A stretch of DNA of 42,697 nt from a virus. The position numbers and the translations under genes were made by a program. The notes under the pieces were generated by a model, which saw only the letters and a list, made by a program, of their open reading frames with translations, made no database searches and was not told where the DNA came from. The stretch spans positions 1 to 42,697 of the IMG/VR virus record IMGVR_UViG_3300021365_002616, one strand, 5' to 3'. Shown here piece by piece: positions 25,501-42,697 of the stretch (the first letter of the stretch is position 1; the number at the start of each line of letters is the position of its first letter).

Positions 25501-28500
25501 AACATCTTTGTCAATCTTGAAAGCATCTAGGCCGTCATCAATTGCTAAAAACTCAAAGCTTCTAAATCTTTTAATATCGTTCGAAAATAAGTATTTTAAC
25601 ATTGCCAACAGTTTACTTATTAATGATGAGAAAGGCAACATTATAAGTGCTATTACATTTTCAATAGCCCAGCCAACAATTGGAATATTCTCAATCCAGT
25701 TTGGCAAATCAAACGGTGGGAGCGCCATATCTTCGGCAGTAATTTGTTTAGCTAGTGGACTGGCAAACCGTCGATCTGCTCCGTAGTTTACCTTTTCGAC
25801 TATGGCCACTCTAATATTATCATCAGGCCTGTTCCTAATCTTTTTGGTTTCTGGATCTTCTTCAATATCAGAATAAAAACACTGGATCTCAAAACCATAC
25901 GACCAAGTATTGCCGGCCCAAGAGAAAGTGTTGCTACTCCAGTTAGTGCCGTGGTCCATTCCTTGGTAGGTGCCCATAGAATTATCTCTAAAGTCTAACG
26001 CAATGTCAGCGCCGCTTTTGTCATAGCTAGATTTGGGTTGGCCCTTACCACCTGGGTAATTTGGATCGCCTTTTCGTGGTAATCTGATAATTTCTATTTC
26101 ATCATCCTCGGCGGTGATGATATCCGCACGACCTTCAATAACCTTCCCAGTAATGGTGTTATATCCAAAATCAGGTAGAGCGATAGTACTTGTACCTTGG
26201 TTTCCGAGTATATTAGTAGAGTATTCCATTTCAGTAGTGTTAACTTTGTAGATTGTTCTGCCCACATATTTATTGGTAGATGAAAAAGTAAGTTGATCGC
26301 GCAAGTGAGTACCGCCGGCTTTGATTTCTACAAATCCAGGTTCGAGATAAGTGGCACCTCGTCCAAACGCATCGGGATCAGCGTACTCGTTGCCGGCATT
26401 TAAAAATTGACGTTTCATCCACTCGCCAACAAAATATGTTAACTGGCCTTCTTGTTCGGTGAAGGAAGCATTTGATTGCAAGAATGAGAAGAAGCCTCTG
26501 CTGGTTTCTCCACCATTTGCAACGTTGGTTGCAAAGTCAACATAACCTTTCCTATTGGACGATTTTCTGTGGTGATTAGTTAATGGATTGCCAAGAGTAT
26601 CGGCCAAGATCATATTTAAGAATCCAAAATTACTGTCACCCATACCAAAGAATGTGAAGCCGGTGCCCATCATGTCGTCCAAATATTCGTTCTCAAGACC
26701 ATCCAAGGCGGCGCCCATAAAACCAATTGCAGCATCGATTGTTTGTGGTGGTTCGTAAGGAAGTAATCCGTCTTCACAGCCCGGGGTCGATAAAATATTT
26801 GGTATTTTGTCCGACACATATGGACCAATGCCAGTGTTTAGCAGCTCAGTCATCACCTCTAGGTCATCTAAGTTTTCGTCTCTAAGATCACAATATAGTT
26901 GATCAATTTGTTCTTTTGAGGCTCTAGAACCTAAGATTTCTTGTCTCAACTCTTGAAATCTTTGTAATTGTTCTGGGGTAGAGCAGATTGATGGGTTTGC
27001 TGGTGTCCCATCGTCGACGCCCAAGTTGTTGTTACTGTAGTTTTTAAGAATTTCTCTATACTCTAACGGCAGCAGGTTACCAATGCCCTTAGTGAACCTC
27101 GCTATAGAGCTTTTGTTCGGCAGTGCATCGCGGTGCTCAGTATGTACAAATTCTAAAAGCTGATCCGCTGCTTCTAAATATGCTTCTGATGGATTTCCTA
27201 AAAGTGCATCGGAGAATTCTTGCCTGGTTACACCAAGTGAAAGATCGTTCGCGAATGCAATTGTCTTATCTCGATCAGCGAAGGCCGATGGGCCCAAGCC
27301 CATAATGGACATCAAGTCAATCATAGTATTTTCGACAGTCGCATCATCAGCATCATCTCCACAAACATTTTCTCGTAAAATATCCATCAAAGATGTATTA
27401 CCGGCTAACATATCAGGTAAACCCATTACTATATCGCCAGCAGTTTCTAATGCTTTACAGACTGCTCTTACTAAAATTTCACACACTTTAGCTATAATCT
27501 GATTGACTACGATCATAATGATCATCCCTGCTAAGAATTTTGCTACAAGCCAAAGTGGATAAAGTATATCTTTAAATGCAAGTTTAAATTCTAAAGCTTG
27601 ATTAAATGTAGGGATGACCACTTCTCTAGGAGTCCTGCAGAAAGCAAGACCCAGTGATTTAATGAAGTCATCTATTCCAGGGTGGAATAACGGAGGGCGC
27701 GGGCACGATAAGGCTGTTAACGAAAGGATGTCTTTTATTAAGGGGGCACCTGGAAAGTTGTTTAATTCGTCAAGAATAACAATCAAATTATCACTAAAAA
27801 CTTCCAAAAGCGCTGTAATATATGCTTGCATGATAGTATCAAGACCAGCAGAATTGTCACCTGAACCTACGGAGTCCAAACCTGACAATATTGTCCTTTC
27901 AGACCCTGCTAACTCGTTCATGGTTTGGCCATAAGTTGGTGGTTTTACAGACTCGTAGTTGTTTAAGTTAGCTGGATTAGTCTGCACTCTTTCTGCCGCA
28001 ATTACTTCGGCGCTGGCCCAGGGCCTTAACATATTTGGTGTTGTTGGGCCTCCTTTGCCAAGCTTAGCCATTTCCTTTTCGACAATGGCATCCATCTCAG
28101 CTTGCTTCTCAGGAGGTAGTCCCACGAATAATTGACCAAATTGTTCGATTCCCATAGCTTGTAACGCTTTTTTAATAATAATAGGTAATGCATCATCAAA
28201 ACTCATACCGCCCATCAAACACCCAAGAGAGTCAAAGACTAAGTCAAGTAGCCCACACAGTTTTAAACTCTGTAGACCTTCTTCCCACAATGGCTGCATT
28301 TGACCCATAGGGCCACCAGGTGACCCCCCAAGGTTACCGGCTGGAATTGCTGGTGATAGTTTGTTAGCCATATTAGATGCGCCGTCTGCTACGGGAGCAA
28401 AGGCATTAACGCACATCCTTAACACTACATCATCATCAGCAGAAAGCTTAGCCCAGCGCTGATTTTTGGCGAGAATAGCAGCCACTTCTTTTCCAAAAGG

Positions 28501-29847
28501 TGAGTTTGGGTCTTCAGGTGAAAGGCGGTTTAGTTCTTCATCATCTTTTAAGATCTCTTGTAGTTTGTCACGACACAGTGTATCGTTATATAGGTACGCA
28601 ACGAGGTCGCCAAGACCAAAAAGTTCATCTAATACGTCAGTTCCAATTTCATTAATTGAGTCTCTAAGGTTGTCATAAAGACAAGAACCGAGTGTTTCCT
28701 CAATAGGAAACTTAGTAACTTTAATTTCAGGATAAGTATAAGTTTCTAGAAACTCACGCCATGGCTGTTCTACTCTAGAATTTAGTGCACGAGCCATTTC
28801 ACTTAAGTTTATAAAATAGTTTACTAAAGTTTCATTGTTCCAATCAAAACTTTTACTGCTGCCATTGCCAACTAATACTTTTAAGGATTTGCTTGCTGTA
28901 TAAACTGCGGGCTTATCTCCACATTCTTCGGTCCAAACTCTTATCACTCTAAGTCTTTTATCTTTAAAACTAAACTGAAGTTTGGTTACTTTTTCTTTAA
29001 ACAGGCCACTGAAAATATCTGCGATGCCTGCGTTAGGTAGTGCCATTCCCTTACTATTCAAGAAGCCTTTAAATTTGTCAATCATATCGGAGAATTGACC
29101 TCTTGAGAAGATAGCTGGATCTCCTACATCTTGAAGTTCAAAGCGATGGGTGGCCTTTCCGGTTGGACTCATGAAGTATGCGTCACCTTCTCCAATTCCA
29201 GATGAAACCTTCAATAGTTTTGAGTAGAAATAAAGACCTTTGCGTACCCTAATAGACTGGGCCATAAGGTTTTCAGCATTATAACTAACTTTTTCCCAAC
29301 CTGGGCCCGTCTCATCTTCTTCCTCTTCTGGTCCCATAACAGCATCAGCTAAGTCGTAAATAATATCAAACGGCACAGAATATAGTAATTTCAATCTTGA
29401 ATTGGGTCTTGCGTCAAGGTCAAACTTTTTAAATTGCATAGCTTTTGAAACTATACTAATTGTTTTTTCAGTTTTAAGTCTGGCACCAAGAGGACAAAAG
29501 TCAAGCATATTCTCGATTGCTTCTTGTTTGAATTCTTCAAATTTTGCTTGCAATTCTTCGTCTGGAGTGTTGTCAACAGTTCCATTGTCTGATTCAGCAG
29601 CCAAGATAGTTTGTAAATTGGCTGTAGAGCTATAGGGAGTAACTTTTGTTATTTGAAAATGACAAATTTTAGTGTTAAGAAACGGACTAAATATATCTTG
29701 TTTTTTCCAATCTGGAACAATCGACGTTGGATCAGGAGTACAAGGACCCTTACAGGGTAGTTCTGGGGTTGTTAAATCGTCGTCACAGACATCGATAACC
29801 CCATCGCGATCTATATCTTGGTATTTTAAAAATTTTGATTCTGCCAT
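22540..29847 (-). CDS. Giant virion-type protein (2435 aa) with calcium loop and two hydrophobic segments
   Basis: The N-terminus contains DIDRDGVIDVCDDD (residues 11-24), matching the D-x-D-x-D-G-x-x-D-x-C-D pattern of thrombospondin type 3/EF-hand-like calcium loops. A CxxxC (PCKGPC) follows. Two long hydrophobic stretches stand out: about residues 760-795 (LWLVAKFLAGMIIMIVVNQI) and about 1383-1420 (WAIENVIALIMLPFSSLISK). Around residue 1960 there is an acidic loop, GYYHIHLDDDGNEIYMAG. The C-terminus is basic. The start follows the spike-like gene by three bases with no clear Shine-Dalgarno. Between the hub genes and gp25 it could be a central baseplate or hub component or a membrane-penetrating virion protein. 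A tape-measure role is less likely, since long coiled coils do not dominate. No family was recognised, and no catalytic motif was found. Confidence 0.85.
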   Translation of the reverse strand: MAESKFLKYQDIDRDGVIDVCDDDLTTPELPCKGPCTPDPTSIVPDWKKQDIFSPFLNTKICHFQITKVTPYSSTANLQTILAAESDNGTVDNTPDEELQAKFEEFKQEAIENMLDFCPLGARLKTEKTISIVSKAMQFKKFDLDARPNSRLKLLYSVPFDIIYDLADAVMGPEEEEDETGPGWEKVSYNAENLMAQSIRVRKGLYFYSKLLKVSSGIGEGDAYFMSPTGKATHRFELQDVGDPAIFSRGQFSDMIDKFKGFLNSKGMALPNAGIADIFSGLFKEKVTKLQFSFKDKRLRVIRVWTEECGDKPAVYTASKSLKVLVGNGSSKSFDWNNETLVNYFINLSEMARALNSRVEQPWREFLETYTYPEIKVTKFPIEETLGSCLYDNLRDSINEIGTDVLDELFGLGDLVAYLYNDTLCRDKLQEILKDDEELNRLSPEDPNSPFGKEVAAILAKNQRWAKLSADDDVVLRMCVNAFAPVADGASNMANKLSPAIPAGNLGGSPGGPMGQMQPLWEEGLQSLKLCGLLDLVFDSLGCLMGGMSFDDALPIIIKKALQAMGIEQFGQLFVGLPPEKQAEMDAIVEKEMAKLGKGGPTTPNMLRPWASAEVIAAERVQTNPANLNNYESVKPPTYGQTMNELAGSERTILSGLDSVGSGDNSAGLDTIMQAYITALLEVFSDNLIVILDELNNFPGAPLIKDILSLTALSCPRPPLFHPGIDDFIKSLGLAFCRTPREVVIPTFNQALEFKLAFKDILYPLWLVAKFLAGMIIMIVVNQIIAKVCEILVRAVCKALETAGDIVMGLPDMLAGNTSLMDILRENVCGDDADDATVENTMIDLMSIMGLGPSAFADRDKTIAFANDLSLGVTRQEFSDALLGNPSEAYLEAADQLLEFVHTEHRDALPNKSSIARFTKGIGNLLPLEYREILKNYSNNNLGVDDGTPANPSICSTPEQLQRFQELRQEILGSRASKEQIDQLYCDLRDENLDDLEVMTELLNTGIGPYVSDKIPNILSTPGCEDGLLPYEPPQTIDAAIGFMGAALDGLENEYLDDMMGTGFTFFGMGDSNFGFLNMILADTLGNPLTNHHRKSSNRKGYVDFATNVANGGETSRGFFSFLQSNASFTEQEGQLTYFVGEWMKRQFLNAGNEYADPDAFGRGATYLEPGFVEIKAGGTHLRDQLTFSSTNKYVGRTIYKVNTTEMEYSTNILGNQGTSTIALPDFGYNTITGKVIEGRADIITAEDDEIEIIRLPRKGDPNYPGGKGQPKSSYDKSGADIALDFRDNSMGTYQGMDHGTNWSSNTFSWAGNTWSYGFEIQCFYSDIEEDPETKKIRNRPDDNIRVAIVEKVNYGADRRFASPLAKQITAEDMALPPFDLPNWIENIPIVGWAIENVIALIMLPFSSLISKLLAMLKYLFSNDIKRFRSFEFLAIDDGLDAFKIDKDVDENKEKALDINDFPNYLSTLTEVKGMPPQIYALADLLGQSPSAALKEKYDSTMQQFYKDFSKMIGENEYGWRTGASHDLVTPGMFEYGVLGPDGEFIPYDAISRSTFIGEVLGFDDEEMQLGMTYDQYVNGENARVIVLDPTVYGGTFNNPPLYVKKPHYAGWWGITEALFPGDTACKPHGKNLIDFDEIKQMLEDYYPSLEEDTRLYSDTECQRQVPFDRILPRYAKIQMYTLILAAIRIYASTHIMKAIGTFSTVQPKFPDNYSTIYSAYLAERMEEDFKNAQPAFWEFFNPFKDDEFWYSFLEQSVECYDFLVSSGAVETPVKGGYIQSASDAINDLQTHYRFTYRSEDTRKYRDEKGNKRTQTVPGLWEQKWTGDAGFFETLANFRERKNFEGIQEVEDEAKIFLQELINHELTKMGSKFVGAMEKAGFQAKIYDLDYWLFENKCVNSEIKYRSDKVVEVPVNVPSKADPDPLGEGSVFPGPYFTAGNQFRVAVDNNESDATGYSEEYIGYYHIHLDDDGNEIYMAGAKHDIGELYILGQGHDILVPVGDIVKVATVETVIEPPGELTKEVPAPGGRTATEPEGGDSTDNIAMGAEPIITKQNVGIGDFPHYGSGGSYTDDRPFKIEKYTSIDGVKYDDETAKSMILAQPSSSFLSDIYPGTLRMIKNKYGVEVGIEGNLGVRHGLIFYYQGTVVTSVEVDALDYQTSQFQTVQPNSKLLHCLVQNLKHDPKYKMFTSYIFSMKKVLGTLAIYNDYGFLASVGEVTVGTGDNFGSLLVTNKGFGGIMGALLKGLGLPVADQTLKGDWGGSDSDNPTNLKAVKSKPGSRAYINQKVGEVRVTMTDDIRDAYGLPWWYDDDIVFENVQQLAQGSFVTGNEGWMHPKDRPSLTPFTLHWDEWDRELLRNSRSRIKSMFKPLYYAAQDRPGKKSGKSPSLIKLRNLKARLFPAPGAGILPWWQRRRLKSNPYNADGEMCDGPDLLG

Positions 29848-30944: not shown

Positions 30945-32264
30945 TTAAAGCGATCGCAACTCTTCAGCTAAATCCGGTTCTTCTTCTGCTTCAGCAGCTG
31001 CTTCGGCGTACTGCCTAATTTCTTCAGGTACTGTTTCATCCCCGACTATCTCTCTTTCAGTTTGTGCAGTTTCACCAACAGTGTTACCCCCAGTTGAAAC
31101 AGTATCAACATTATTATCTCTTAAAGATTCAAAGAATTGTTGAACTTGTTCTTCGTTACCCCAATCTCGCGGATTGAAATCAAAGTGTACGGGGTCATAA
31201 TTGCTAAAGTTACCTCCCCATCTAAGAAACAACGGAGAGCCCATAGCAATTTGTGGAAATCCAGTTGATAACCATATTTGTTTATTGGCGCCTTTGCTAC
31301 CGCCGGTTTTTGAAGTAATGAGTGTTCCGTTTCTATCATAAAAGTTTAAGTCAATAGCCATTCCATAAGTGTGGCGACTTCGTGTCGGGCAAAGACCACA
31401 AGAGGCAGGCAGCGCCCTTTCACCTCTTTTCCATGCTTTATGCATTTCTTCTTGGTGGGCTGGATCTCTAAAACCCGATGTAATCTGAATTTTAAAACCT
31501 TGCTCATGAGCTGCATATATAAGCGCTTTAACCCATATATCGAAAGGCGCCTTAACCGCCGGCGGCCCACCGCCTCCAACATATTCTTTATGTGGTTTAA
31601 ATCCCGCAATTAGTGCGGAGTTTTTACCAGGAATATTTGTTTCATCATACAATTCTGCAAGTCTTCTTAGTTCAGATGGCATCTCTACTGCCGGTGGTGG
31701 CTCGTAGGCTTCACCAAATTTAAAGTAAGATCTAATCGAATCACAAGTCTTTTCATTTAGTGTTGTGTTTCCAGTTTCGTTAACGTGTAAAACTTCAACC
31801 AACTCTGCTGTTTGTAAGTTGTAGACCCCACTGCTGTGTTTATGTAGTCTGACCACAACATACGTGCCTATGTTGATGCCACGGTCTGCTTCTGCAACCA
31901 CAGTGGTGTGCAAAGCAACAAGTGCATTTTGCTGACACTTATCAGCCGCAAGTGTAATATCGCACGGATCTTGTAAAATAGCATGCGGGTTATTTCTCTT
32001 ATGAGTTATGCGAACTTTAAACTTTTTAAATGATTGATTCATTTTATTGTCGGCGCCAGCATAACCCAGGGCTTTATATTCATATGGTTCAACAGATTTT
32101 GGGTTAGTTATTACAACCGCTCTAAATTCTGTTTGATTATTAAAAGCCTCTCCATTGTCACCAAATATACTATCAATCAGCGATTCGATACCACCAAGAG
32201 TGTTATCTATTATCTCATCAATATTCAAATGACTTATCAGTGAGCTTTTTTTAACGCCCGACAC
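30945..32264 (-). CDS. Baseplate hub candidate with OB-like domain and M15 peptidoglycan peptidase
   Basis: Residues about 45-165 form a beta-rich region (FRAVVITNPK, INIGTYVVVRLHKH) that may be the OB-fold of gp5-type hub proteins. Residues about 235-370 are a clear M15 zinc peptidase: SGFRD at 263-267, SRHTYGMAIDLN at 296-307 giving ligands H298 and D305, and RWGGNF with DPVHFDF giving H360. The W-G-G...D-P-x-H-F pattern matches L-alanyl-D-glutamate endopeptidases such as the T5 endolysin. The C-terminus is an acidic, Ala/Glu-rich tail. The enzyme would cut peptidoglycan stem peptides during infection, taking the place of the T4 gp5 lysozyme. The start is GTG at 32264, overlapping the upstream TAG by one base. 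A free endolysin is the alternative, but the extra N-terminal domain and the tail-gene context favour a hub. Confidence 0.88.
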   Translation of the reverse strand: MSGVKKSSLISHLNIDEIIDNTLGGIESLIDSIFGDNGEAFNNQTEFRAVVITNPKSVEPYEYKALGYAGADNKMNQSFKKFKVRITHKRNNPHAILQDPCDITLAADKCQQNALVALHTTVVAEADRGINIGTYVVVRLHKHSSGVYNLQTAELVEVLHVNETGNTTLNEKTCDSIRSYFKFGEAYEPPPAVEMPSELRRLAELYDETNIPGKNSALIAGFKPHKEYVGGGGPPAVKAPFDIWVKALIYAAHEQGFKIQITSGFRDPAHQEEMHKAWKRGERALPASCGLCPTRSRHTYGMAIDLNFYDRNGTLITSKTGGSKGANKQIWLSTGFPQIAMGSPLFLRWGGNFSNYDPVHFDFNPRDWGNEEQVQQFFESLRDNNVDTVSTGGNTVGETAQTEREIVGDETVPEEIRQYAEAAAEAEEEPDLAEELRSL

Positions 32265-34101: not shown

Positions 34102-34339
34102 TTTGTTCTCCTTTATTGTGTTTTTCAATATATGGTTTAACAAACCATTTAGCGTCACCTAATTTGTGACAGTGTACCCAATACCTAACCGTTCCATAAG
34201 GATCGTAAGGGTTGGTAACTTTTTGTTTTTTTACTACTGTGCCAGAACCGTAATCGCGGACAATATTAATATCGGAGTAAGTTTCATACCACTTAACTAG
34301 ATCACCTACTCTTATATCATTTTTATGTGACACTTGCAA
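34091..34339 (-). CDS. SH3-like small basic protein of unknown function (82 aa)
   Basis: The sequence DIRVGDLVKWYETY followed by GSGTVVKKQKVTNPYDPYG and YWVHCHKLGDAKWFV looks like a small five-strand SH3-like or Tudor-like barrel. In this fold 'VGDLVKW' starts the first strand. There is no ATG in frame. TTG 34339 has GGAG five bases upstream, and GTG 34333 has the same GGAG at eleven bases, so the start is ambiguous by two codons. It overlaps the epimerase stop by 11-17 bases and the next start by 11 bases. It is the junction gene between the sugar cassette and the late-regulation genes. Function unknown. Confidence 0.72.
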   Translation of the reverse strand: MQVSHKNDIRVGDLVKWYETYSDINIVRDYGSGTVVKKQKVTNPYDPYGTVRYWVHCHKLGDAKWFVKPYIEKHNKGEQNET

Positions 34340-35180
34340 TACATCTCCGTAAACCAGTTTTTAAATCAATTTTGGCGCGCCAGCCTATTCCATCTAAGCT
34401 CGATGTGTCCGCCCTAGAATTTTTTATGTCCCCATCACGTGACGGTCGCATATCCCAAATAACATCAAATACATTGTCGATATAGTCTTTTATTTCATTA
34501 AGGGTGTGGGCTTGGCCGGTGCCAACATCATAAACTTGACCATTAAAATTGTGTTTATAATTCATACAGTGCAAGTTAGCATCTACAATATCATCTACAT
34601 GAATGAAGTCTCTTGTTTGTATACCATCACCATCTAATCGTAATGGCGCATTGTTCTTTATTTTCTCTAACCATGCAGATATCACAGTTGAGTACGCCCC
34701 ACCGTATTTTTGATCTTCCGAATATACATTAAAATATCTCAAGGATACGGTATCTATATTGTACAAAGCACTATAGATTTCGCATTCTAGCTCAGTCATT
34801 CTTTTGTGAGCACCGTAGGGGCTACTAGGTATCTGAGCAGCTGCGGAGCTAGCAAATATCACTCTCTTGGCGCCAACCAACTTAGCATATTCAAGCACCC
34901 TAGAGGAACCTAATACATTATGGTTCAATGAGTCAGAAGGATTCTCTACGCTCCACTGCACACTTGGCTTAGCGGCCAAATGAAAAATGTATTCTGGCTT
35001 GAATTTAAGGTGACTAAAGTTCTTTTCGTTATCGAACAGGTGCCAGCGAATATCTAATTTTTCCGATGTTACTTGTGACTCTATATCAATGCCATAAACA
35101 CTATGACCTAGTTGCTTAAGTCTTGCAAACAACTTGGATCCTATGTACCCTTTGTGGCCAGTTACCAAGCAGTTAGCCAT
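34323..35180 (-). CDS. NAD-dependent sugar epimerase/dehydratase (GalE/RmlB-like extended SDR)
   Basis: This 285-residue protein has the extended-SDR pattern. The nucleotide-binding loop is TGHKGYIG (7-14), the acidic switch is YGIDIES, FHLAAKPSVQWSVENP lies around 65-81, and the catalytic serine stretch FASSAA is followed by YGAHK (Tyr122, Lys126). RYFNVY and LDGDGIQTRDFIHVDDI complete it. Enzymes of this type interconvert or dehydrate NDP-sugars such as UDP-glucose. The exact sugar cannot be read from the sequence. I choose ATG 35180 with GAGG upstream rather than 35192; it overlaps the previous gene stop by eight bases. It is the last sugar gene before the late-regulation block. Confidence 0.88.
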   Translation of the reverse strand: MANCLVTGHKGYIGSKLFARLKQLGHSVYGIDIESQVTSEKLDIRWHLFDNEKNFSHLKFKPEYIFHLAAKPSVQWSVENPSDSLNHNVLGSSRVLEYAKLVGAKRVIFASSAAAQIPSSPYGAHKRMTELECEIYSALYNIDTVSLRYFNVYSEDQKYGGAYSTVISAWLEKIKNNAPLRLDGDGIQTRDFIHVDDIVDANLHCMNYKHNFNGQVYDVGTGQAHTLNEIKDYIDNVFDVIWDMRPSRDGDIKNSRADTSSLDGIGWRAKIDLKTGLRRCIASVT

Positions 35181-36147
35181 CGATTTCCTCAATCATATCA
35201 AATGCAGAATCCCAATCGGTAAAACGGATTGCTTTATCATCAATATAAAATCTTGCTCTTGGTTTCTCAGCAGTTACTTTGCTAACAAACTGTGCCATAT
35301 TCTGCTCTTTCAACCACTCCCAGACCAATTCAGTACCAGTCTTACCACTAACTAGGCCGCGGTCAGGCTTGGCTTTACAAGTATAAACAATAACTGTGTA
35401 TCGCTTAGAAAGTTTTTCTAGAGCCTCATAGGCTCCTTCTACTGGGTCATCATATATTGTCCCGTCATAGTAACCCTTGGAGCACTTATGAATAACTTTA
35501 TCGAAATCAATTCCAACATTAATTTGTTCATCTGGATAGCTGTGTTCACGAATCTTCCCACCTTTCCAGTTAAGGTTTTTTAAGCCTTCTGGATCATTGC
35601 TACCAATTGGCGGACACACATTGCCGGAGCCATGTGTAAGCTGGTAAGTAAGTAACAAGGTCAATACTTCTGCAGTGTGATAATAATCTGCTCCAAGCAC
35701 AACTTTCGTCAATTCATCAATCTGCATAGGTATATCCTTGGAGGTCAACATAGCTACCTGCATACCGTTGGCCTGAGCCCATTGAAGAGCCTTAAGAATA
35801 TCTATAGAATTTCCAGATGAGGAAATTCCAAGCACCAATGACTTTTTCATTTGAGGTGCAGTACGTGTTGATGTTCTCGCTATTAGCCAATTTACCATCC
35901 ACTGCTCAAAGCTAGTATCATTAATGTACGACGTCGCGACGACGCCAGAACTAGGACAGATTGCGTTCTTGGTTCCGTTCGACAAGCGAGTCATATCGAC
36001 TGCAGCGTGATCAGCCACAGCCATGTTACCGCCGTGACCTAAGACGTATATGTCATCACATTGATTATATTTCTCTTGTAATTGCTCCCACTCAGTTGTG
36101 TGAACAACTTGAACAAATTTGTCACCTATGTTTTCAAAATTAAGCAT
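35173..36147 (-). CDS. Bifunctional GmhA-like SIS sugar isomerase fused to HAD-type phosphatase
   Basis: Residues 1-190 form an SIS domain of the sedoheptulose-7-phosphate isomerase (GmhA) type. YVLGHGGNMAVADHAAVDM (34-52) matches the family's 'GNGGSAADAxH' element, GISSSGNS (107-114) is the phosphate-binding loop, and HTAE (157-160) lies where GmhA carries catalytic residues. Residues about 210-324 form a small HAD domain: GIDFDKV (Asp214, Asp216), VYTCK (254-258) and YIDDKA (Asp303, Asp304). GmhA and the HAD phosphatase GmhB act one step apart in the heptose pathway, so a fusion makes sense. The HAD part is much smaller than GmhB, however, and resembles phage nucleotidase-like HADs. Substrate is unknown. 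AAGGAG lies nine bases before the ATG. Confidence 0.85.
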   Translation of the reverse strand: MLNFENIGDKFVQVVHTTEWEQLQEKYNQCDDIYVLGHGGNMAVADHAAVDMTRLSNGTKNAICPSSGVVATSYINDTSFEQWMVNWLIARTSTRTAPQMKKSLVLGISSSGNSIDILKALQWAQANGMQVAMLTSKDIPMQIDELTKVVLGADYYHTAEVLTLLLTYQLTHGSGNVCPPIGSNDPEGLKNLNWKGGKIREHSYPDEQINVGIDFDKVIHKCSKGYYDGTIYDDPVEGAYEALEKLSKRYTVIVYTCKAKPDRGLVSGKTGTELVWEWLKEQNMAQFVSKVTAEKPRARFYIDDKAIRFTDWDSAFDMIEEIDG

Positions 36148-36825
36148 TTATTTTAACTCCTTGTATCCCTCTAATAAGATTGTGGTATCCATACCTACAG
36201 CAATTATACCATATTCTGAGTATTTGTCAATATGTTTATCTACATCGGTTGGTATATGGACCGCCATCTTGGTAGGGTCAGTAATTACACTGTTGATTCT
36301 TTCAATCGCCTCTAAAAATGTAGGATTGTTAAATTCTGCTGTCACACCTAAACTAGCGGATAGATCATATGGTCCAATCATATAGTGAGTTAGACCTTGT
36401 GCATATATCTCTTCAAGATTGTGAAGCGCTCTTTTTGTCTCAATCTGGGCAACAATAATTGGCGGTTTGTTAACAAGTGTGGAATATCCCCATTTATTTT
36501 GTCTCACAAGCCCTAGGCCGCGAGAACCACCATATTTGGGGTAGGTACACAGGTCTTTTATTTCGGCGGCTTGTGAGGCATCCTCGACAGTTGAGAATAT
36601 TAAACCACTGGCGCCGGCATCTAAGCACATTCTAATGAGTGTTTTATTGATCTCTGTGAGTCTAACCAAACACACTTTGTTTTTTGCCGTAATAATCTGT
36701 ATACAGTTGTGCAGGGTTTCGTTATTGTAACACCCATGTTCTGTATCTAAAACTACTCCATCAAAATCTTCGCAAAGCATTTCAGAAATAATTGTAGATG
36801 GTATTTGTTGCCAGGAAAGCTTCAC
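36148..36825 (-). CDS. HpcH/HpaI-family aldolase (class II pyruvate aldolase)
   Basis: The 225-residue protein matches the HpcH/HpaI fold. Elements are VLDTEHG (25-31, His30), LVRL (53-56, Arg55), AGASGLIFSTVEDASQA (70-86), SRGLG (101-105), IVAQIET (124-130, metal ligand Glu129) and IGPYDLSASLG (150-160, metal ligand Asp154). All key metal and substrate residues are present, so it is probably active. The family cleaves or forms C-C bonds between pyruvate and an aldehyde. Here it could make a 2-keto-3-deoxy acid, perhaps feeding a nonulosonate-like sugar; that is speculation. The start is GTG 36825, overlapping the upstream stop as GTGA, with GGAG eight bases before it. Confidence 0.88.
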   Translation of the reverse strand: MKLSWQQIPSTIISEMLCEDFDGVVLDTEHGCYNNETLHNCIQIITAKNKVCLVRLTEINKTLIRMCLDAGASGLIFSTVEDASQAAEIKDLCTYPKYGGSRGLGLVRQNKWGYSTLVNKPPIIVAQIETKRALHNLEEIYAQGLTHYMIGPYDLSASLGVTAEFNNPTFLEAIERINSVITDPTKMAVHIPTDVDKHIDKYSEYGIIAVGMDTTILLEGYKELK

Positions 36826-37277
36826 TTATATTTCTCCACAAAGTCTGTACATATTCCAGCGCAGTTTCTTAATTGCTGTTCAGTATACAAGCCATCAAAT
36901 TTCTCTGGCATAACACAGATGGACTCTGGTGTTAGAGTGTGACCTGGATATGTCCATATAAATCCTTTGGTTGTTACTGTATAAAAATCATCTTGATGCC
37001 AAAACACATTGAAATTTGATACCTGCTGCGTTAGTGAATGGAGTGCTTGAATATCTTTTGCGTGCAGCCAAAGATTATTTACTCTTTCAAAAAGCCATTC
37101 AGGTGAAACCATATATTGTTGCTCATCATGGCCAAGATAAAATTTAGTATAAAAGGAACCTCGGATGTCTATTTCAACATCATAACCTTTTTCAAGGGCT
37201 CTGTCAATATAAAGTGGATTATTTTCCATCTCAGGGTTTGGGCCAGTCAGATTACCTCTGTGTGCGATTAAAATCAC
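36822..37277 (-). CDS. Short glycerophosphodiester phosphodiesterase-like protein
   Basis: The 151-residue frame from GTG 37277 begins VILIAHRGN and carries the GDPD active-site set: His6-Arg7-Gly8 (HRG), Glu35 and Asp37 in DVEIDIRG, and His50 in YLGHDE. Normal GDPD enzymes have 240-300 residues in a TIM barrel, so about half the barrel is missing although the catalytic residues remain. The GTG overlaps the methyltransferase stop as GTGA, like the next junction. An in-frame ATG at 37304 would add nine residues but has no ribosome-binding site. It could hydrolyse a sugar- or glycerol-phosphodiester, or act only as a binding module. It is probably part of the sugar pathway, given the overlaps on both sides. 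Confidence 0.8.
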   Translation of the reverse strand: MILIAHRGNLTGPNPEMENNPLYIDRALEKGYDVEIDIRGSFYTKFYLGHDEQQYMVSPEWLFERVNNLWLHAKDIQALHSLTQQVSNFNVFWHQDDFYTVTTKGFIWTYPGHTLTPESICVMPEKFDGLYTEQQLRNCAGICTDFVEKYK

Positions 37278-37969
37278 TTCTTCACCACATAAGCTGTGGG
37301 GCATATATAATTTAATGTCTTAATTTGTACGTCTTTATCGGCGAAGAATCGGTCTACTCCTGCAGATTCAGACCATTTATGAAAAGCGTACTCGTCAAAT
37401 ACTACAATGCCCCCCTTAACAACTCTATCCCACATAGCAGTGAGTGCTTCGTAGGTAGGAACATCTAAGTCCAAATCAATGTAGAGCAGTGAGATCCTAA
37501 ATCCAGGACGCTCTTTAACATAGTCGTGGGCAGTTTTAGTAATATCTCCAGCCACCAGTTCAAATTCGTGGTCTTCAAACCCGCAATTCTTTACAAAATC
37601 GCCAAATAATTGTGTTTGGTTGTCTTCATGCTTGTAACCTCGTTTGTCAAACAGGGTACCCATAGCCTCTTTATCAATACCAGACAAGCTCTCAATCAAC
37701 TTTTCAGAGTTAAAAAAGTCAAATCCAACCACCTTTTTACCACTATTGGGGCACAAAAAGCGCTTTATTTTCAAGAAAGTGAGCATTCCGGTGCCTTTAA
37801 ACACTCCGCACTCAACAATATCACCAGGTAAGTCTTTAACTTGATCTACTAAAAGTGTTCTAGCTAATAACTTACCAAATACTTTGGTATCGGGGCTAAG
37901 AATAAACCCATTGAAAAAATCATATAAATTTTGAGAGGTGTCTACAATTTCCAGTTCTTTTAAGTCCAT
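37274..37969 (-). CDS. TylF/macrocin-type O-methyltransferase
   Basis: The 231-residue protein has the SAM-binding loop IVECGVFKGTG (51-61), and the TylF-family signature LLYIDLDLDVPTYEAL (161-176) followed by VKGGIVVFDEYAFHKW (184-199). The acidic cluster (Asp165, Asp167, Asp169 region and Asp192, Glu193) would bind Mg2+. TylF enzymes methylate sugar hydroxyls, so this one probably adds an O-methyl group to the sugar made by the cassette. AGGAG (37975-37979) lies five bases before ATG 37969, and the upstream stop directly abuts it (TAAATG). Family call is strong; the acceptor is unknown. Confidence 0.9.
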   Translation of the reverse strand: MDLKELEIVDTSQNLYDFFNGFILSPDTKVFGKLLARTLLVDQVKDLPGDIVECGVFKGTGMLTFLKIKRFLCPNSGKKVVGFDFFNSEKLIESLSGIDKEAMGTLFDKRGYKHEDNQTQLFGDFVKNCGFEDHEFELVAGDITKTAHDYVKERPGFRISLLYIDLDLDVPTYEALTAMWDRVVKGGIVVFDEYAFHKWSESAGVDRFFADKDVQIKTLNYICPTAYVVKK

Positions 37970-39340
37970 TTATACTCCTTGAAACTTGTTAAAGTAATCT
38001 AAGTCTTCGGGAGTTCCGATACCCCACATCCCATCAAAGTGGAATGTTTTAATCTTTTTACCGTCTTCCAACGCTTCATTAAAAACAGGACAGACGTAGA
38101 ACTCATTGTTAAACCTGACATTGTTCTTAATCATTTGCTCTGCATATTTTACATAATCAGAGCCGTGCTTCCAATAATAAATTCCAGCAGTAGCAACATC
38201 GCTGATGGGTTTCTTCTCTGCAACCTCGGATACAAACCCTTGTTCATCGAGTTTGGCGAAACTCCACTTGGGGTGTGTTGCTGTAAACGTTAACATCCCT
38301 CCATCGACTTCGTCAGCTTCCATAGAGTACATAAACTCATTGCTATCCCAATCTAAGAACTGATCTGAATTTGCAAAGATGAGTGGCTCATCATTATTAA
38401 TAAATTCTTTTGCTAATAAAGTTGTGCAGGCTGCACCTTCAGTCATGCCATCAACCTGCACTATCTCACATCCAGGTGAAATTAGACCGAGAAGATGTTT
38501 CAAATTATATTTTTCATAGTGCTCTTTCTGCACCACGAAGATGTGGCGAGCATCGATATTTAAATTCTCAACAACAAGTTGAATCATTGGCTTGCCTCTA
38601 ACCTCAATAAGCGGTTTAGGGAAAGTATACCCTGCTTGTTGAAACCGAGAGCCGGCGCCGGCCATTGGTATTAGTACGTTCATTTTACCTCCTTGCCATT
38701 TAGGTCTTACATTTTGTTTTCGATTTACTTTGTCAATAGTTTCTTTAATTTTCTCATAAGTTACATCGCTACTATTTTTTACAGCGCATAAGTGTGCACC
38801 ACTATTAATTGCTGCTTTGCGACCGTGATGCGAATCTTCAATTACTACCGTTTCGTGAGGGTCAACATTAGCCCTCAACATACATTTCATATATATTTCA
38901 GCACTAGGCTTTGGCTTTGTGACATCTTGGTTAGAATAAAGAAAGTCAATGTGTTCAAAGAATCCTCTTCTAATAAGTTGCAACTTAGCTGTATCTCTGA
39001 TTGAATTAGTCGCACATGCTAGGGTGTAACCATCAAGCTTTAGTTTTTTAAGAACCTTAATGATTCTATGATCATATTCAAAATTGTCAATTATCTCAAC
39101 TGTCTTTTGTTGTTTAGCTTTCCAGATGGTTGTATGAAACTCTTCTGGTAACCCTTTCTTGTCTGAGAGCATTTGCAATTTCTTTGTTGTTGAAAGTCCA
39201 TCGTAAGTTGACAGATGCTCTGCTCTGTTTACAACATAACGTTCGTCAATGTCTCGTAATGCTAAATTGAGAGCTTCATAGTGAAGTTCTCGGGCATCTA
39301 CAAGGACGCCATCTAAATCAAATACTACTAATTTAACCAT
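37970..39340 (-). CDS. Fusion of HAD phosphatase and sugar nucleotidyltransferase
   Basis: From ATG 39340 (456 aa; eight-base overlap with the upstream stop; GTG 39358 is an unlikely alternative) the first ~215 residues form a HAD hydrolase of the beta-phosphoglucomutase type: VFDLDGVLVD (6-15), TNS (111-113), KPKPS (142-146), IEDSHHG (167-173). From residue 220 a second enzyme begins, MNVLIPMAGAGSRF, with TFPKPLIEVRGKPMIQ and later FANSDQ and MWGIGTPEDLDYF. These are hallmarks of NTP-transferases that make NDP-sugars from sugar 1-phosphates. A phosphatase or mutase plus nucleotidyltransferase would perform successive activation steps. A strong ribosome-binding site lies directly before Met220, so the second domain may also be made alone. 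Substrate and nucleotide are not determined. Confidence 0.9.
   Translation of the reverse strand: MVKLVVFDLDGVLVDARELHYEALNLALRDIDERYVVNRAEHLSTYDGLSTTKKLQMLSDKKGLPEEFHTTIWKAKQQKTVEIIDNFEYDHRIIKVLKKLKLDGYTLACATNSIRDTAKLQLIRRGFFEHIDFLYSNQDVTKPKPSAEIYMKCMLRANVDPHETVVIEDSHHGRKAAINSGAHLCAVKNSSDVTYEKIKETIDKVNRKQNVRPKWQGGKMNVLIPMAGAGSRFQQAGYTFPKPLIEVRGKPMIQLVVENLNIDARHIFVVQKEHYEKYNLKHLLGLISPGCEIVQVDGMTEGAACTTLLAKEFINNDEPLIFANSDQFLDWDSNEFMYSMEADEVDGGMLTFTATHPKWSFAKLDEQGFVSEVAEKKPISDVATAGIYYWKHGSDYVKYAEQMIKNNVRFNNEFYVCPVFNEALEDGKKIKTFHFDGMWGIGTPEDLDYFNKFQGV
38681..38693 (-). promoter_or_regulatory. Internal ribosome-binding site and ATG inside the HAD-nucleotidyltransferase gene
   Basis: AGGAGG at 38693..38688, followed by TAAA and ATG at 38683..38681, is the best Shine-Dalgarno in the window and lies in frame inside the fusion gene. 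The ATG is exactly the first residue expected for a stand-alone nucleotidyltransferase (237 aa, 38683..37970). This suggests either a recent gene fusion that kept the old start, or deliberate production of both the fusion and the free C-terminal enzyme. Confidence 0.65.
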
Positions 39341-40262
39341 TTCTAAATTTCTCTCCACTTTTAAAAGGATGTTTGTCTATATCGTAACACTTATCCGCGT
39401 CAAGCCACATATCACCCTCTCTCCAGCCTACATAATTCTTACCAGACAATTCAATGTCTTTTTCAAAATAGTAATACTGTACAAAACTAGGAACCTTGGG
39501 TGGGCTTGGTGGGTTTTCTACAAAGTCTTTGCTCCATCGAGTTAACCAACCGTAGTAGCTTGGCTGTTGTTTCCAAGTATCTTTCCATTTCCAATAAAAG
39601 ATCTGCGAAGTATGGTACCAACCTTCTTTTGAGTCGTTATTTGACTTAGCAGTGCGCCAATCCGACTCGCCGCCTCTGTAGTCCGATGTGTCTAACTCAA
39701 GCGCGTCGTGTGCATTCAGCAGGCGCCCGTGAATCTTGTCATTGATAAGTGAATGTTCTTTGTTATAAATTAACGCTCTGATATAGTAATCCGCTTCTTT
39801 GTTAGCTGGTGTAAGGAATCTTTCATCCCACATGCCAATCTTTTTTACTGCGTCGGCGGTATAGCTGACAATATTATCACCAAGTTGGCCAGTAATAAAA
39901 TTATATTTTTGATGCATCTTGAGCAAATTAGTGGCCCAGTTTGGATTAAGAACAATATCATTTTGCATTGTAACAACAATCTTGGCATCTGGGTCTTTCA
40001 GATCTTTAAATCCGTGTAACAGTGCTTCATTCCAATTGCGTGCTAAGTTGCCGGTATCCCAATCGGGTCGAGTACTGTTGTGAATTACGTTTACTTTGTC
40101 AACAAACTCAGCGTTTAATTCAAACTCAGAGTGATTGTTTATTATATTGACCTCGGTATTTGGTATTGAACTAAAGTCAGTCTTGTTAAAAAGTCTATCA
40201 AGAGTTTCGTTCAATACTCCAGTTCTTCTATATGTCACGATAAATATTTTTAAATTTTTCAT
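39333..40262 (-). CDS. Glycosyltransferase, GT2/GT-A-like
   Basis: The 309-residue protein starts KNLKIFIVTYRRTGVLNETL, typical of GT-A family 2 enzymes. NIINNHS (39-45) follows, then NLARNWNEALLHG (72-84) and TMQNDIVL (98-105), where Asn-Asp replaces a classical DxD. The C-terminal third is unusually rich in Trp, Tyr and Lys (about residues 215-290) and may bind acceptor glycan. It overlaps both neighbours (ATGA with the CMP-sugar synthetase; eight bases with the fusion gene). It probably transfers one sugar of the glycan built by the cassette. Donor and acceptor are unknown. The fold is likely, though the modified DxD lowers certainty on activity. Confidence 0.85.
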   Translation of the reverse strand: MKNLKIFIVTYRRTGVLNETLDRLFNKTDFSSIPNTEVNIINNHSEFELNAEFVDKVNVIHNSTRPDWDTGNLARNWNEALLHGFKDLKDPDAKIVVTMQNDIVLNPNWATNLLKMHQKYNFITGQLGDNIVSYTADAVKKIGMWDERFLTPANKEADYYIRALIYNKEHSLINDKIHGRLLNAHDALELDTSDYRGGESDWRTAKSNNDSKEGWYHTSQIFYWKWKDTWKQQPSYYGWLTRWSKDFVENPPSPPKVPSFVQYYYFEKDIELSGKNYVGWREGDMWLDADKCYDIDKHPFKSGEKFRNG

Positions 40263-40927
40263 TTTTTTCTCATTTTTTCGTATAAAATTTCTGCCAACAT
40301 AAACTCAAACTCAGTATCAACGTCGACCGCTTCCACTTCATCTAGCATATAAGGATAAAACTTATCGCCTAGAATGTTTTTGTTCTTAATCATAATCTCA
40401 CGAGGTAGAATATTTGCTGCAAAGTTTAGGGCATATATATCTGGTAGATCCTGTGACCTTGGGTGATTCTTAGGATCGTAGTTTATCGCTCTCCCATCTA
40501 ACCACATATACTCTTTGATAATATTTGTGGTAACAACACAGTCGTAGTCTGCTTCACGTTTGTAAATATCGATACATTCTTGTACAGTTTCATCAGTCAC
40601 CAATGGGCTCGTCACTGGAGTCCAGAGAATATCTTTACATTCCAGGCTAGTGGCAAGATGCACGTATACATCCCCCATAGGTACCGTATCACTAGCGTAG
40701 AAAGGATCTCTCTTCATGGGATAAGCGCCCAAGTCCTCTGCAATCTGAAGCATTTCATCATCATCAGAAGTTACTACGACTTTATTAACATCGCGCAGTC
40801 TTAGCGCTTGCTCGACTTTGAGGGTTAACATATTAGAACCCCCAAAAGGTCGGATATTCTTGCGAGGAACACGCTTAGAACCGCCTCTAACAGCAATTAA
40901 AACATTAATATCAATGTCTCTATGCAT
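40259..40927 (-). CDS. CMP-sugar synthetase (NeuA/KdsB-like cytidylyltransferase)
   Basis: The 222-residue protein has the NeuA hallmark VRGGSKRVPRKNI (13-25) with the CTP-binding Arg/Lys pair, VVTSDDDEML (51-60), WTPVTSPLV (102-110) and the acidic metal site DVDTEFEFMLAE (202-213). These match N-acylneuraminate cytidylyltransferases, which activate nonulosonic acids (sialic, legionaminic and related) with CTP; KDO is a less likely substrate. GGAGG (40937-40941) lies nine bases before the ATG, which overlaps the SDR stop as TAATG. The neighbouring GT29/GT42-like gene would be a natural user of the CMP-sugar. No sialic acid synthase (NeuB) is in the window. Confidence 0.9.
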   Translation of the reverse strand: MHRDIDINVLIAVRGGSKRVPRKNIRPFGGSNMLTLKVEQALRLRDVNKVVVTSDDDEMLQIAEDLGAYPMKRDPFYASDTVPMGDVYVHLATSLECKDILWTPVTSPLVTDETVQECIDIYKREADYDCVVTTNIIKEYMWLDGRAINYDPKNHPRSQDLPDIYALNFAANILPREIMIKNKNILGDKFYPYMLDEVEAVDVDTEFEFMLAEILYEKMRKK

Positions 40928-41640
40928 TAAAACTGTCCTCCATTAACGTCAATAGCTGCGCCAGTTATATAAGACGCTGCGTTTGAGCATAGGAACAAGA
41001 TCGGCATTGCCTGTTCTGTGGTAGTGGCAATCCTCCTAATTGGAATTTTTGCCTCTAATTCTGCAATTGCTTCTTCAGACATTGATTCCTGCAGCATTTC
41101 CGTCATAGTTTGACTCGGACACACGCAATTGACCAGTATATTATGTTTTGATACTTCATTTGCAAGCTGCTTTGTTAAACCAATGATTCCATATTTGCTG
41201 GAGGTATAATGTACTCCACTAACGATACTTTTATTTCTTCCAGCAATAGATGATACATTAACTATTCTACCATAATTTTGTCTTTTCATTAAGCTAACTG
41301 CTTCTTTACAGATTACAAAAAATGATTTTAAGTTGATATTCATTACTCGATCCCATTCATCAGTATCGATACAATCTATCGGCTCGCAAAGATTGGTGCC
41401 AGCAACATTAATTACGAAATCAATTTCATCAAGTTTAGAGAAAATGTATTGTATATTTTCTATATTAGTTAAATCACACCTAAGATCCTTCACTAGGTGC
41501 AAATTAGCAGAAGTTCTCGACGCATTATATACAACGCAACCAGCGGCAGCAAGTTGCCGGCAAACTTCTTTACCGATCCCCCTACTACCGCCAAAAACTA
41601 TTGCCGTCTTGCCTAAAAAATTGAAATTTATATCATTCAT
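40927..41640 (-). CDS. Short-chain dehydrogenase/reductase (classical SDR)
   Basis: The 237-residue protein shows FGGSRGIG (16-23), the NVAGTN motif (78-83), the catalytic serine in VNVSSIAG, and YTSSK (Tyr145, Lys149). It ends with the usual ITGAAIDVNGGQF. It is a classical NAD(P)-dependent SDR of the FabG type, here probably reducing or oxidising a sugar intermediate. I prefer ATG 41640, which overlaps the cupin stop by eight bases as elsewhere in this operon and gives a standard N-terminus (MNDINFNFLGKTAIV). ATG 41652 adds four residues. Specificity cannot be read from sequence. Confidence 0.9.
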   Translation of the reverse strand: MNDINFNFLGKTAIVFGGSRGIGKEVCRQLAAAGCVVYNASRTSANLHLVKDLRCDLTNIENIQYIFSKLDEIDFVINVAGTNLCEPIDCIDTDEWDRVMNINLKSFFVICKEAVSLMKRQNYGRIVNVSSIAGRNKSIVSGVHYTSSKYGIIGLTKQLANEVSKHNILVNCVCPSQTMTEMLQESMSEEAIAELEAKIPIRRIATTTEQAMPILFLCSNAASYITGAAIDVNGGQF

Positions 41641-42064
41641 CTTCGTATACATGATTTACATCTGGTCTTGTTATAGCGTATCTAACACCGGGACCGTCAC
41701 CTACACATTTGATGTGATGCCATGTATTTTTGGGAACAACAATAATATCGTTCTTTTTAACTCGTTGGGTTCCTATACCCTCGCTCCACCATTCCCACTC
41801 ACCATCCAAGATTACCCAGTTTTCGTCTGCATCTGGATGAAAGTGTTTACGGTTTCCTTCGCCGGGTTGTTGTTGGATGACAACACCACCAAACAATTCG
41901 TTGTATGCGATACGAACTGCCCAAGAACCCATTCCTAGATCCTCACGAAGGTCTTTTAAATTAACTGTTGAACAGTTTTCATATTTTACTAGCTCTGAAT
42001 GTCCTACACCATCGTTTTTAAGGACATTAACAAGATCGCTATCTGAATTAGTCTTTATTCCCAT
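41633..42064 (-). CDS. Single-domain cupin protein
   Basis: The cupin motif 1 is perfect: G68-x5-H74-x-H76-x4-E81-x6-G88, in GEGNRKHFHPDADENWVILD. Motif 2 is present as VVPKNTWHHIKC (109-120). The three histidines and the glutamate would bind a metal ion. Such small cupins act as sugar isomerases or epimerases, dioxygenases, or binding proteins. Some nonulosonate and CMP-sugar clusters carry one next to the cytidylyltransferase, which fits here. The ATG overlaps the upstream stop (TAATG) and AAGG precedes it. Exact reaction unknown. Confidence 0.88.
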   Translation of the reverse strand: MGIKTNSDSDLVNVLKNDGVGHSELVKYENCSTVNLKDLREDLGMGSWAVRIAYNELFGGVVIQQQPGEGNRKHFHPDADENWVILDGEWEWWSEGIGTQRVKKNDIIVVPKNTWHHIKCVGDGPGVRYAITRPDVNHVYEDE

Positions 42065-42697
42065 TACCTTGTCTCGTTTTTAAATTTTGGTAACAAAATG
42101 AAATTTTTGATACGCATTGATACACTAGTAGAATTTAACATGTTAAGTACCGGTTTGTCAAGTTTAAATCTCTTATCTTTTAATAAAACATTTTTACAAT
42201 GCATCATTTGTGATAATTGGTCGTGTAAAACTTTGTCTGGGCCATTTGGTGTTCCCGAAGATCCATATGTATCTGTATATTGTTTGGTATACTTGCCTTC
42301 ATCTGTCTGCGGTGTGCCCGTGTTGTAAAAATCTAACCCAAATACAGCTAATTCTTTAATTGGGTATCTTAACAGCATATTTAGCGCGCCATATCCAGAA
42401 TTAAAGTTAGCTGAGTAAACAGTGTAAACGCCTTTGTCAAACTTTTCAATATGTTGTTTCGCATAAATTTCCCAATATAGAGCCCACCTGTCCCAAGAGG
42501 TATCCTCATTTCTAAGATGCACAAGCGGTACACCTAATTCTGCAAACTGGGGTTCGTATATTTCATCAACAAACGCCCACGTTCCATCTGATTTCATTTG
42601 ACTTGCTGTGTCATTACATATAACAAATTTAGGCTTATCTTCTACCGGGAGAGTTTTTAAATGCTCAATCACTGGCGGGCCATAATTAGAGTTTAAG
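42064..42697 (-). CDS. GT29/GT42 (sialyltransferase)-like protein, N-terminus cut by window edge
   Basis: The frame is open to the right edge of the window: upstream of GTG 42672 it reads LNSNYGPP in frame, so the true start lies outside. About 210 residues are visible. VYTVYSANFNSGYGALNMLL followed by ELAVFGLDFYNTG resembles the 'SG...A..LGxKEIYLxGxDFY' pattern of bacterial sialyltransferases (GT42) and of related GT29-like proteins. A 'VICNDTA' strand lies near the start. With the CMP-sugar synthetase two genes downstream, a role transferring a nonulosonate-like sugar is plausible. The catalytic histidine cannot be assigned from this partial view, and a DUF115-type protein is the alternative. 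Confidence 0.75.
   Translation of the reverse strand, partial: LNSNYGPPVIEHLKTLPVEDKPKFVICNDTASQMKSDGTWAFVDEIYEPQFAELGVPLVHLRNEDTSWDRWALYWEIYAKQHIEKFDKGVYTVYSANFNSGYGALNMLLRYPIKELAVFGLDFYNTGTPQTDEGKYTKQYTDTYGSSGTPNGPDKVLHDQLSQMMHCKNVLLKDKRFKLDKPVLNMLNSTSVSMRIKNFILLPKFKNETR

Follow-up and report, generated by a model that had tools for sequence, protein, structure and literature searches.

Phage genes suggesting that a CMP-activated ulosonic acid is made through a pyruvate aldolase within a probable surface-glycan cluster

Which sugar would be made by a phage-borne gene cluster that joins a CMP-sugar synthetase to a pyruvate aldolase? The question is raised by a run of 11 minus-strand open reading frames (ORFs; 34323-42696), in which neighbors abut or overlap, in virus record IMGVR_UViG_3300021365_002616. 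The window, i.e., the whole stretch of DNA analyzed here, is a 42,697-base fragment of this record, which belongs to a marine bacterial virus. A first-pass annotation made from the letters alone had named the parts of this run, and our ORF calls and domain matches agree with it, but the 11 genes that it listed are only the visible part of a larger cluster. The IMG/VR contig L025, which is 99.95% identical over >17 kb and reaches 8.2 kb beyond the window, adds eight genes upstream in the direction of transcription, bringing the cluster to 19 genes and making the window run the downstream part of the operon. To our knowledge, described routes to CMP-activated ulosonic acids all form the sugar acid from phosphoenolpyruvate (PEP) via a NeuB- or KdsA-type synthase. 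We give about an even chance to the reading that the virus carries this cluster as a surface-glycan operon and that the operon's core yields a CMP-activated 2-ulosonic acid, sialic acid- or Kdo-like, through a pyruvate aldolase and without PEP. Four genes of the window would carry the core steps:

35173..36147, minus strand: SIS-HAD fusion, 324 amino acids (aa), with a GmhA-like sugar-phosphate isomerase fold and a HAD phosphatase-like domain
36148..36825, minus strand: HpcH/HpaI class II pyruvate aldolase, 225 aa (PF03328, 7e-20)
40259..40927, minus strand: CMP-sugar (ulosonate-type) synthetase, type A, 222 aa (CTP_transf_3, 1.4e-13)
42064..42696, minus strand: C-terminal 210 aa of a 636-aa two-domain glycosyltransferase, truncated by the window end (full gene, L025:6954-8864)

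In the proposed route, the SIS domain would convert a ketose phosphate to an aldose phosphate, which the aldolase would condense with pyruvate into a 2-keto-3-deoxy sugar acid, replacing NeuB or KdsA; genomic linkage and an intact active site point to this step. A HAD domain would then remove the phosphate, the cytidylyltransferase, assigned by fold and family and with a predicted substrate, would produce the CMP-ulosonate, and the adjacent GT29-family transferase would pass it on to a glycan. There are two simplest candidates for the product: fructose-6-phosphate would lead to a Kdn-like acid, ribulose-5-phosphate to a Kdo-like one. The methyltransferase, cupin, short-chain dehydrogenase (SDR), HAD-NTP/GDPD, and GMD/DegT modules may decorate this sugar or supply others.

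The link between aldolase and synthetase is seen in viral genomes at large. We scanned 2.9 million viral contigs with the SIS-HAD fusion, the aldolase, and both types of synthetase as queries and obtained >100 loci, in which ORFs were called and then matched to profiles made from the cluster's own proteins. In 31 of 34 aldolase lineages (70% clusters with ≥3 kb on each side), the locus includes a gene resembling CMP-ulosonate synthetases, which lies within five genes of the aldolase in 24 and adjacent to it in 13. The reciprocal scan was uniform: all 45 interior loci of the type B synthetase contain the aldolase, as do 34/34 after dereplication at 95% and 24/24 at 70%, and a GT29 or DUF115 gene lies ≤3 genes from the type B synthetase in 29/34. 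The partners of the aldolase are not orthologous and may be type B, type A, or KdsB-like. Types A and B resemble CMP-sialate synthetases and one another; a KdsB-like synthetase lies beside the aldolase in two contigs (L074 and L096), one of which scores above the TIGR00466 cutoff (L074, 169.5, in the order KdsB, aldolase, SIS-HAD). Several contigs do encode NeuB or KdsA, each paired with its own synthetase. In the lineage represented by G017/L022 and G034/L065, KdsA is followed by one synthetase and NeuB by another, and a third, of type B, remains for the aldolase; similarly, L085 has NeuB overlapping a synthetase of its own, with a type B gene two genes away from the aldolase. The association of a CMP-sugar branch with an aldolase that the first-pass annotation had pointed out is thus supported by these neighborhoods.

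The catalytic residues of the aldolase are also in place. When aligned to solved aldolases, its catalytic Arg and His and the metal-binding Glu/Asp are invariant in 16/16 phage homologs, and among solved proteins, 2-keto-3-deoxy sugar acid aldolases are closest to it. The SIS domain is recognized weakly by Pfam (1.2e-4, under the cutoff), but it is closest to GmhA in sequence as well as in predicted structure (template modeling [TM] score of 0.74 to 5i01) and nearer to GmhA than to KdsD. GmhA uses a His and a Glu in its active site. Here the His is conserved, and the Glu is replaced by an invariant Asp, so that the SIS active site does not appear to be lost. The HAD part matches phrog_1238 (7e-15) and keeps its DxD, K, and DD motifs. 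The model of the whole fusion is of modest confidence (mean predicted local distance difference test score of 79; predicted TM score of 0.55), and a search of cellular genomes found no SIS-HAD fusion. The best solved matches of the type A synthetase are CMP-sialic acid synthetases; it scores 93 bits against the PseF model, under the cutoff of 205.7, and ≤33 bits against Kdo synthetase models, so it is not KdsB. The GT29 (sialyltransferase-family) domain of the 636-aa protein matches PF00777 at 1.3e-5 over ∼50 residues, and a stand-alone homolog matches at 2.4e-11. Of the earlier label for this transferase, GT29/GT42-like, the GT29 half stands, at the C terminus of the full protein; GT42 (CST-I) matches, weakly, only the separate DUF115-like gene upstream.

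Could a canonical synthase have been overlooked? With whole contigs scanned, NeuB (PF03102) was absent from L025 and from 65 of 71 contigs, and KdsA/DAHP synthase (PF00793) was absent from L025 and above the cutoff in only 2 of 50 related contigs. Both models recover their targets in control genomes, but these absences are not proof, because most contigs are fragments. We rejected a canonical nonulosonate or Kdo pathway with an overlooked synthase, as the NeuB, KdsA/DAHP, and DHDPS models were mostly negative over whole contigs with positive controls.

Several observations weigh against the aldolase route, beginning with the type A synthetase away from the window. Among 25 interior loci of its outer relatives (95% dereplication), none has the aldolase, and in 20 the synthetase lies directly beside SIS-HAD (e.g., L175-L206, L211, and L216). 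HpcH above the cutoff is absent in 31 of 33 outer type A contigs, and NeuB, KdsA, and a DHDPS-family aldolase were not found in nearly all of those tested. Since these relatives adjoin SIS-HAD without the aldolase, and nearly all without NeuB or KdsA, type A may not need this aldolase, and the link is less certain in the window because the window synthetase is of type A. There, the link rests on two observations: 9/9 dereplicated window-like clusters retain both genes, and where sister clusters have type B next after the GT29 protein, these have type A. The window aldolase and synthetase could serve different products. Further, NeuB is present in the loci of 2/34 aldolase lineages and in a small cellular contig (L035) that shows no more than one synthetase; a D-2-hydroxyacid dehydrogenase, which has no assigned role, often accompanies the aldolase-synthetase pair; and plasmids of Roseobacter and relatives (L268, L269, and L270) carry a CMP synthetase followed by a phosphoglycerate dehydrogenase-like protein with no aldolase near. 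The usual reaction of HpcH aldolases is cleavage. Finally, three aldolase lineages, probably a single clade, lack a synthetase and lie beside a thiamine pyrophosphate (TPP)-dependent enzyme.

A different recurrent cassette is seen in L075, L089, L090, L094, and L095, in which a TPP-dependent (IlvB-like) enzyme, an HpcH aldolase, a second HpcH-like protein, an iron-sulfur-like protein, and a small HAD occur without a CMP synthetase.

These observations could mean that two pathways share one operon, the type A synthetase with SIS-HAD, cupin, and SDR activating one acid (a host-supplied ulosonate or a non-ulosonate) and the aldolase making another product, such as a 2-oxo or 2-hydroxy acid substituent. 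The outer type A loci, with their SIS-HAD pairing, empty aldolase counts, and near-complete lack of a DHDPS-family aldolase, speak for this arrangement, as does the dehydrogenase that often follows the aldolase; we nevertheless consider it rather unlikely, since all nine dereplicated window-like clusters keep both genes, the aldolase is elsewhere tied to three kinds of CMP synthetase, and type B loci without SIS-HAD indicate that aldolase and synthetase do not need that fusion. A pathway to a GDP- or CDP-activated heptose or hexose, in which SIS-HAD would combine GmhA and GmhB, the HAD-nucleotidyltransferase fusion (HAD-NTP) would act as an HddC-like step toward a methylated heptose, and the CMP branch would be secondary, is improbable. 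The affinity of SIS to GmhA and the nucleotidyltransferase domain fit it, but the GHMP (HddA-type) kinase (PF00288) is absent in 33 contigs, including L025, with a positive control in 14/14 genomes, and the partner of HAD-NTP, in cyanophages too, is GDPD and not SIS-HAD. Because of the missing kinase, we rejected heptose as the principal product, and of the annotation's nonulosonate- or heptose-like sugar the heptose part is weakened.

The aldolase might instead run in the cleavage direction, destroying or recycling a host ulosonic acid, so that the cluster would remodel an acidic sugar and not build one. Characterized HpcH/HpaI relatives are catabolic, and YhcH, whose family recurs beside cellular copies of the aldolase, is a catabolic partner in Escherichia coli, where it opens Neu5Ac for the pyruvate aldolase (PMC8141875). 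We regard this as highly improbable: the aldolase is constantly found with a synthetase that consumes CTP and with a GT29-family/DUF115 transferase, which points to synthesis, and the cellular copies lie in polysaccharide clusters with flippases and glycosyltransferases.

The pairing of aldolase and synthetase recurs in cells, which favors the proposed route. The cellular copies come from a sampling of 388 genomes of one bacterial phylum (the phylum of a Verrucomicrobia metagenome-assembled genome [MAG]), 371 of one archaeal phylum (the phylum of a Woesearchaeota MAG), and a plasmid set. In the genomes of the two phyla, close members of the phage-aldolase profile were found only in these two MAGs (284 and 332 bits); the next-best cellular aldolases (110-144 bits) also adjoin synthetases, in Verrucomicrobiota (L253, L255, L256, L258, and L260) and in an archaeon (L267, KdsB). 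A YhcH/anomerase-family gene precedes the aldolase in L255 and L258 and lies between synthetase and aldolase in the archaeal L034. In cultured Acuticoccus sp. I52.16.1, a plasmid (L271, 5201-8362) carries the aldolase, an acylneuraminate cytidylyltransferase, a phosphoglycerate dehydrogenase-like protein, and a HAD hydrolase in one run. Among the plasmids of Roseobacter and relatives named above, that of Thalassovita also has a separate KpsF-KdsA-KdsB set.

Tentatively, and at somewhat below an even chance, we suggest an undescribed route, common to phages, bacteria, and archaea, whose ulosonic acid is supplied to the CMP synthetase by a class II HpcH/HpaI aldolase in place of a PEP-dependent synthase; where the dehydrogenase is present, the donor could be hydroxypyruvate, and the product would be a 3-hydroxy (non-3-deoxy) ulosonic acid. 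That the dehydrogenase supplies hydroxypyruvate as the aldol donor is our guess. If the route exists, genome surveys based on NeuB and KdsA miss producers of acidic surface sugars, viruses included, and its enzymes could serve as tools for CMP-ulosonate synthesis; the link is testable in the cultured Acuticoccus strain.

How does this core relate to known systems? The Kdo pathway (KdsD, KdsA, KdsC, and KdsB) likewise has a SIS-fold isomerase, a HAD phosphatase-like domain, and a CTP-dependent PF02348 synthetase, and some window relatives have a KdsB-like synthetase next to the aldolase. Unlike that pathway, the cluster has no KdsA, either in the window or in the added stretch; it has instead a pyruvate aldolase from another superfamily, its isomerase and phosphatase-like domains are fused, and the window synthetase is of another kind. 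With nonulosonate pathways (sialic, Kdn, pseudaminic, and legionaminic acids) the cluster shares a synthetase nearest to CMP-sialate synthetases, a nearby GT29-family transferase, and, with Kdn, a proposed HAD phosphatase step, but the window and extension have no NeuB, NeuC, or PseB/PseC set. As the defining synthases were not found, we do not place the cluster in either family and file it as a variant of CMP-ulosonate pathways. Pyruvate aldolase chemistry on an ulosonic acid recalls NanA with its YhcH anomerase (PMC8141875), as does the YhcH-family gene in cellular relatives; NanA, however, is a class I DHDPS-type enzyme for breakdown, whereas here a class II HpcH/HpaI enzyme lies beside a CMP synthetase. 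Prophage EpaA/EpaB of Acinetobacter (PMC12053666) are likewise ulosonic-acid enzymes that a virus encodes and that act on a surface glycan, but they convert a host-made sugar, whereas a larger pathway seems to be carried here. The sugar clusters of cyanophages S-8S55, S-PRM1, and B23 share the HAD-NTP fusion (∼60% identity) and GDPD, and B23 also has TylF; the window-type synthetase, the SIS-HAD fusion, and the aldolase were not found in cultured cyanophages. The first-pass annotation knew of no pathway matching the whole set, and our comparison agrees. In the literature covered, which was partial and left most subscription journals outside, we found no paper joining an HpcH aldolase with an acylneuraminate cytidylyltransferase or CMP-ulosonate synthetase.

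The remaining genes of the window encode the following:

34323..35192, minus strand: NAD-dependent sugar epimerase/dehydratase, 289 aa (PF01370, 8.9e-48)
36822..37304, minus strand: minimal GDPD-like protein, 160 aa (phrog_34507, 1.1e-29)
37274..37969, minus strand: TylF-type O-methyltransferase, 231 aa (PF05711, 1.1e-9)
37970..39358, minus strand: HAD-NTP (HAD phosphatase-nucleotidyltransferase) fusion, 462 aa (HAD_2, 8.6e-28; NTP_transferase, 1.8e-13)
39333..40262, minus strand: GT2-like glycosyltransferase, 309 aa (PF00535, 1e-5)
40927..41652, minus strand: SDR, 241 aa (PF13561, 3.3e-45)
41633..42064, minus strand: cupin, 143 aa (PF07883 [Cupin_2], 3.2e-12)

The extension adds two GT4 glycosyltransferases, a third transferase-like protein, a DUF115/MptE-like protein with weak sialyltransferase similarity, a cupin-like protein, a methyltransferase, a 196-aa DegT-type aminotransferase, and a GDP-mannose 4,6-dehydratase (GMD). 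Most window-like contigs have the epimerase on the downstream side of SIS-HAD. Pfam does not recognize the mini-GDPD; its earlier assignment is nevertheless supported, since 16 homologs share the HR(G/A)N, E(I/V)D, and GHD residues without variation.

The annotation had read all 11 genes as a single pathway, a view that the comparison does not bear out: the set splits into modules that move separately. Judged from gene order, the cluster is a mosaic of interchangeable cassettes, not a random assemblage. Recurrent modules are GMD with DegT, HAD-NTP with GDPD, the type A synthetase with SIS-HAD and sometimes cupin-SDR (the SDR co-occurs with the cupin and this synthetase), and a synthetase with the HpcH aldolase. 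The smallest common set, a GT29-like transferase, synthetase, aldolase, and SIS-HAD, is seen in L013, L016, and L017, in which nearly all else differs. The HAD-NTP fusion is ∼60% identical in cultured Synechococcus phages S-8S55, S-PRM1, S-CAM9, and B23, associates with GDPD rather than with SIS-HAD there as well, and is divided into two genes in L007 and L019. The linkage conserved across neighborhoods led us to reject a random gene collection, one of the findings that, according to the annotation, would have undone its proposal. Between L025 and one relative, nonsynonymous divergence is 0.04-0.40 (pN) versus a synonymous divergence of 0.65-0.88 (pS, near saturation), and protein identity is 42-94%. 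Since identity stays at this level while synonymous sites are nearly saturated, the genes are maintained and under strong purifying selection.

A host-surface or virion glycan, which had been proposed as the likely purpose, is supported. The many glycosyltransferases of the operon lie by tail genes and by baseplate-wedge (20304-22097) and endolysin (30945-32264) matches, and they fit either host-surface modification or virion glycosylation. A search found no close cultured relative. A T4-type Gp23 capsid gene is present in 11/20 related contigs; a cyanophage origin was rejected, as the Photo_RC gene is present in 0/20. The window also contains two very large minus-strand ORFs (9258-18779, 3173 aa; 22540-29847, 2435 aa).

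An HpcH aldolase fragment (231564-232082) is also found in OR844989.1, a 282-kb record labeled Staphylococcus phage that may hold bacterial DNA. Extension to the right, which the annotation had proposed as a check, revealed no NeuB, KdsA, or GHMP kinase and did reveal an aminotransferase, the 196-aa DegT protein (L025:5414-6004). This protein, a candidate minimal perosamine-type aminotransferase, is about half the usual length, keeps the motif around the pyridoxal phosphate lysine, adjoins GMD, and is conserved in ∼10 contigs.

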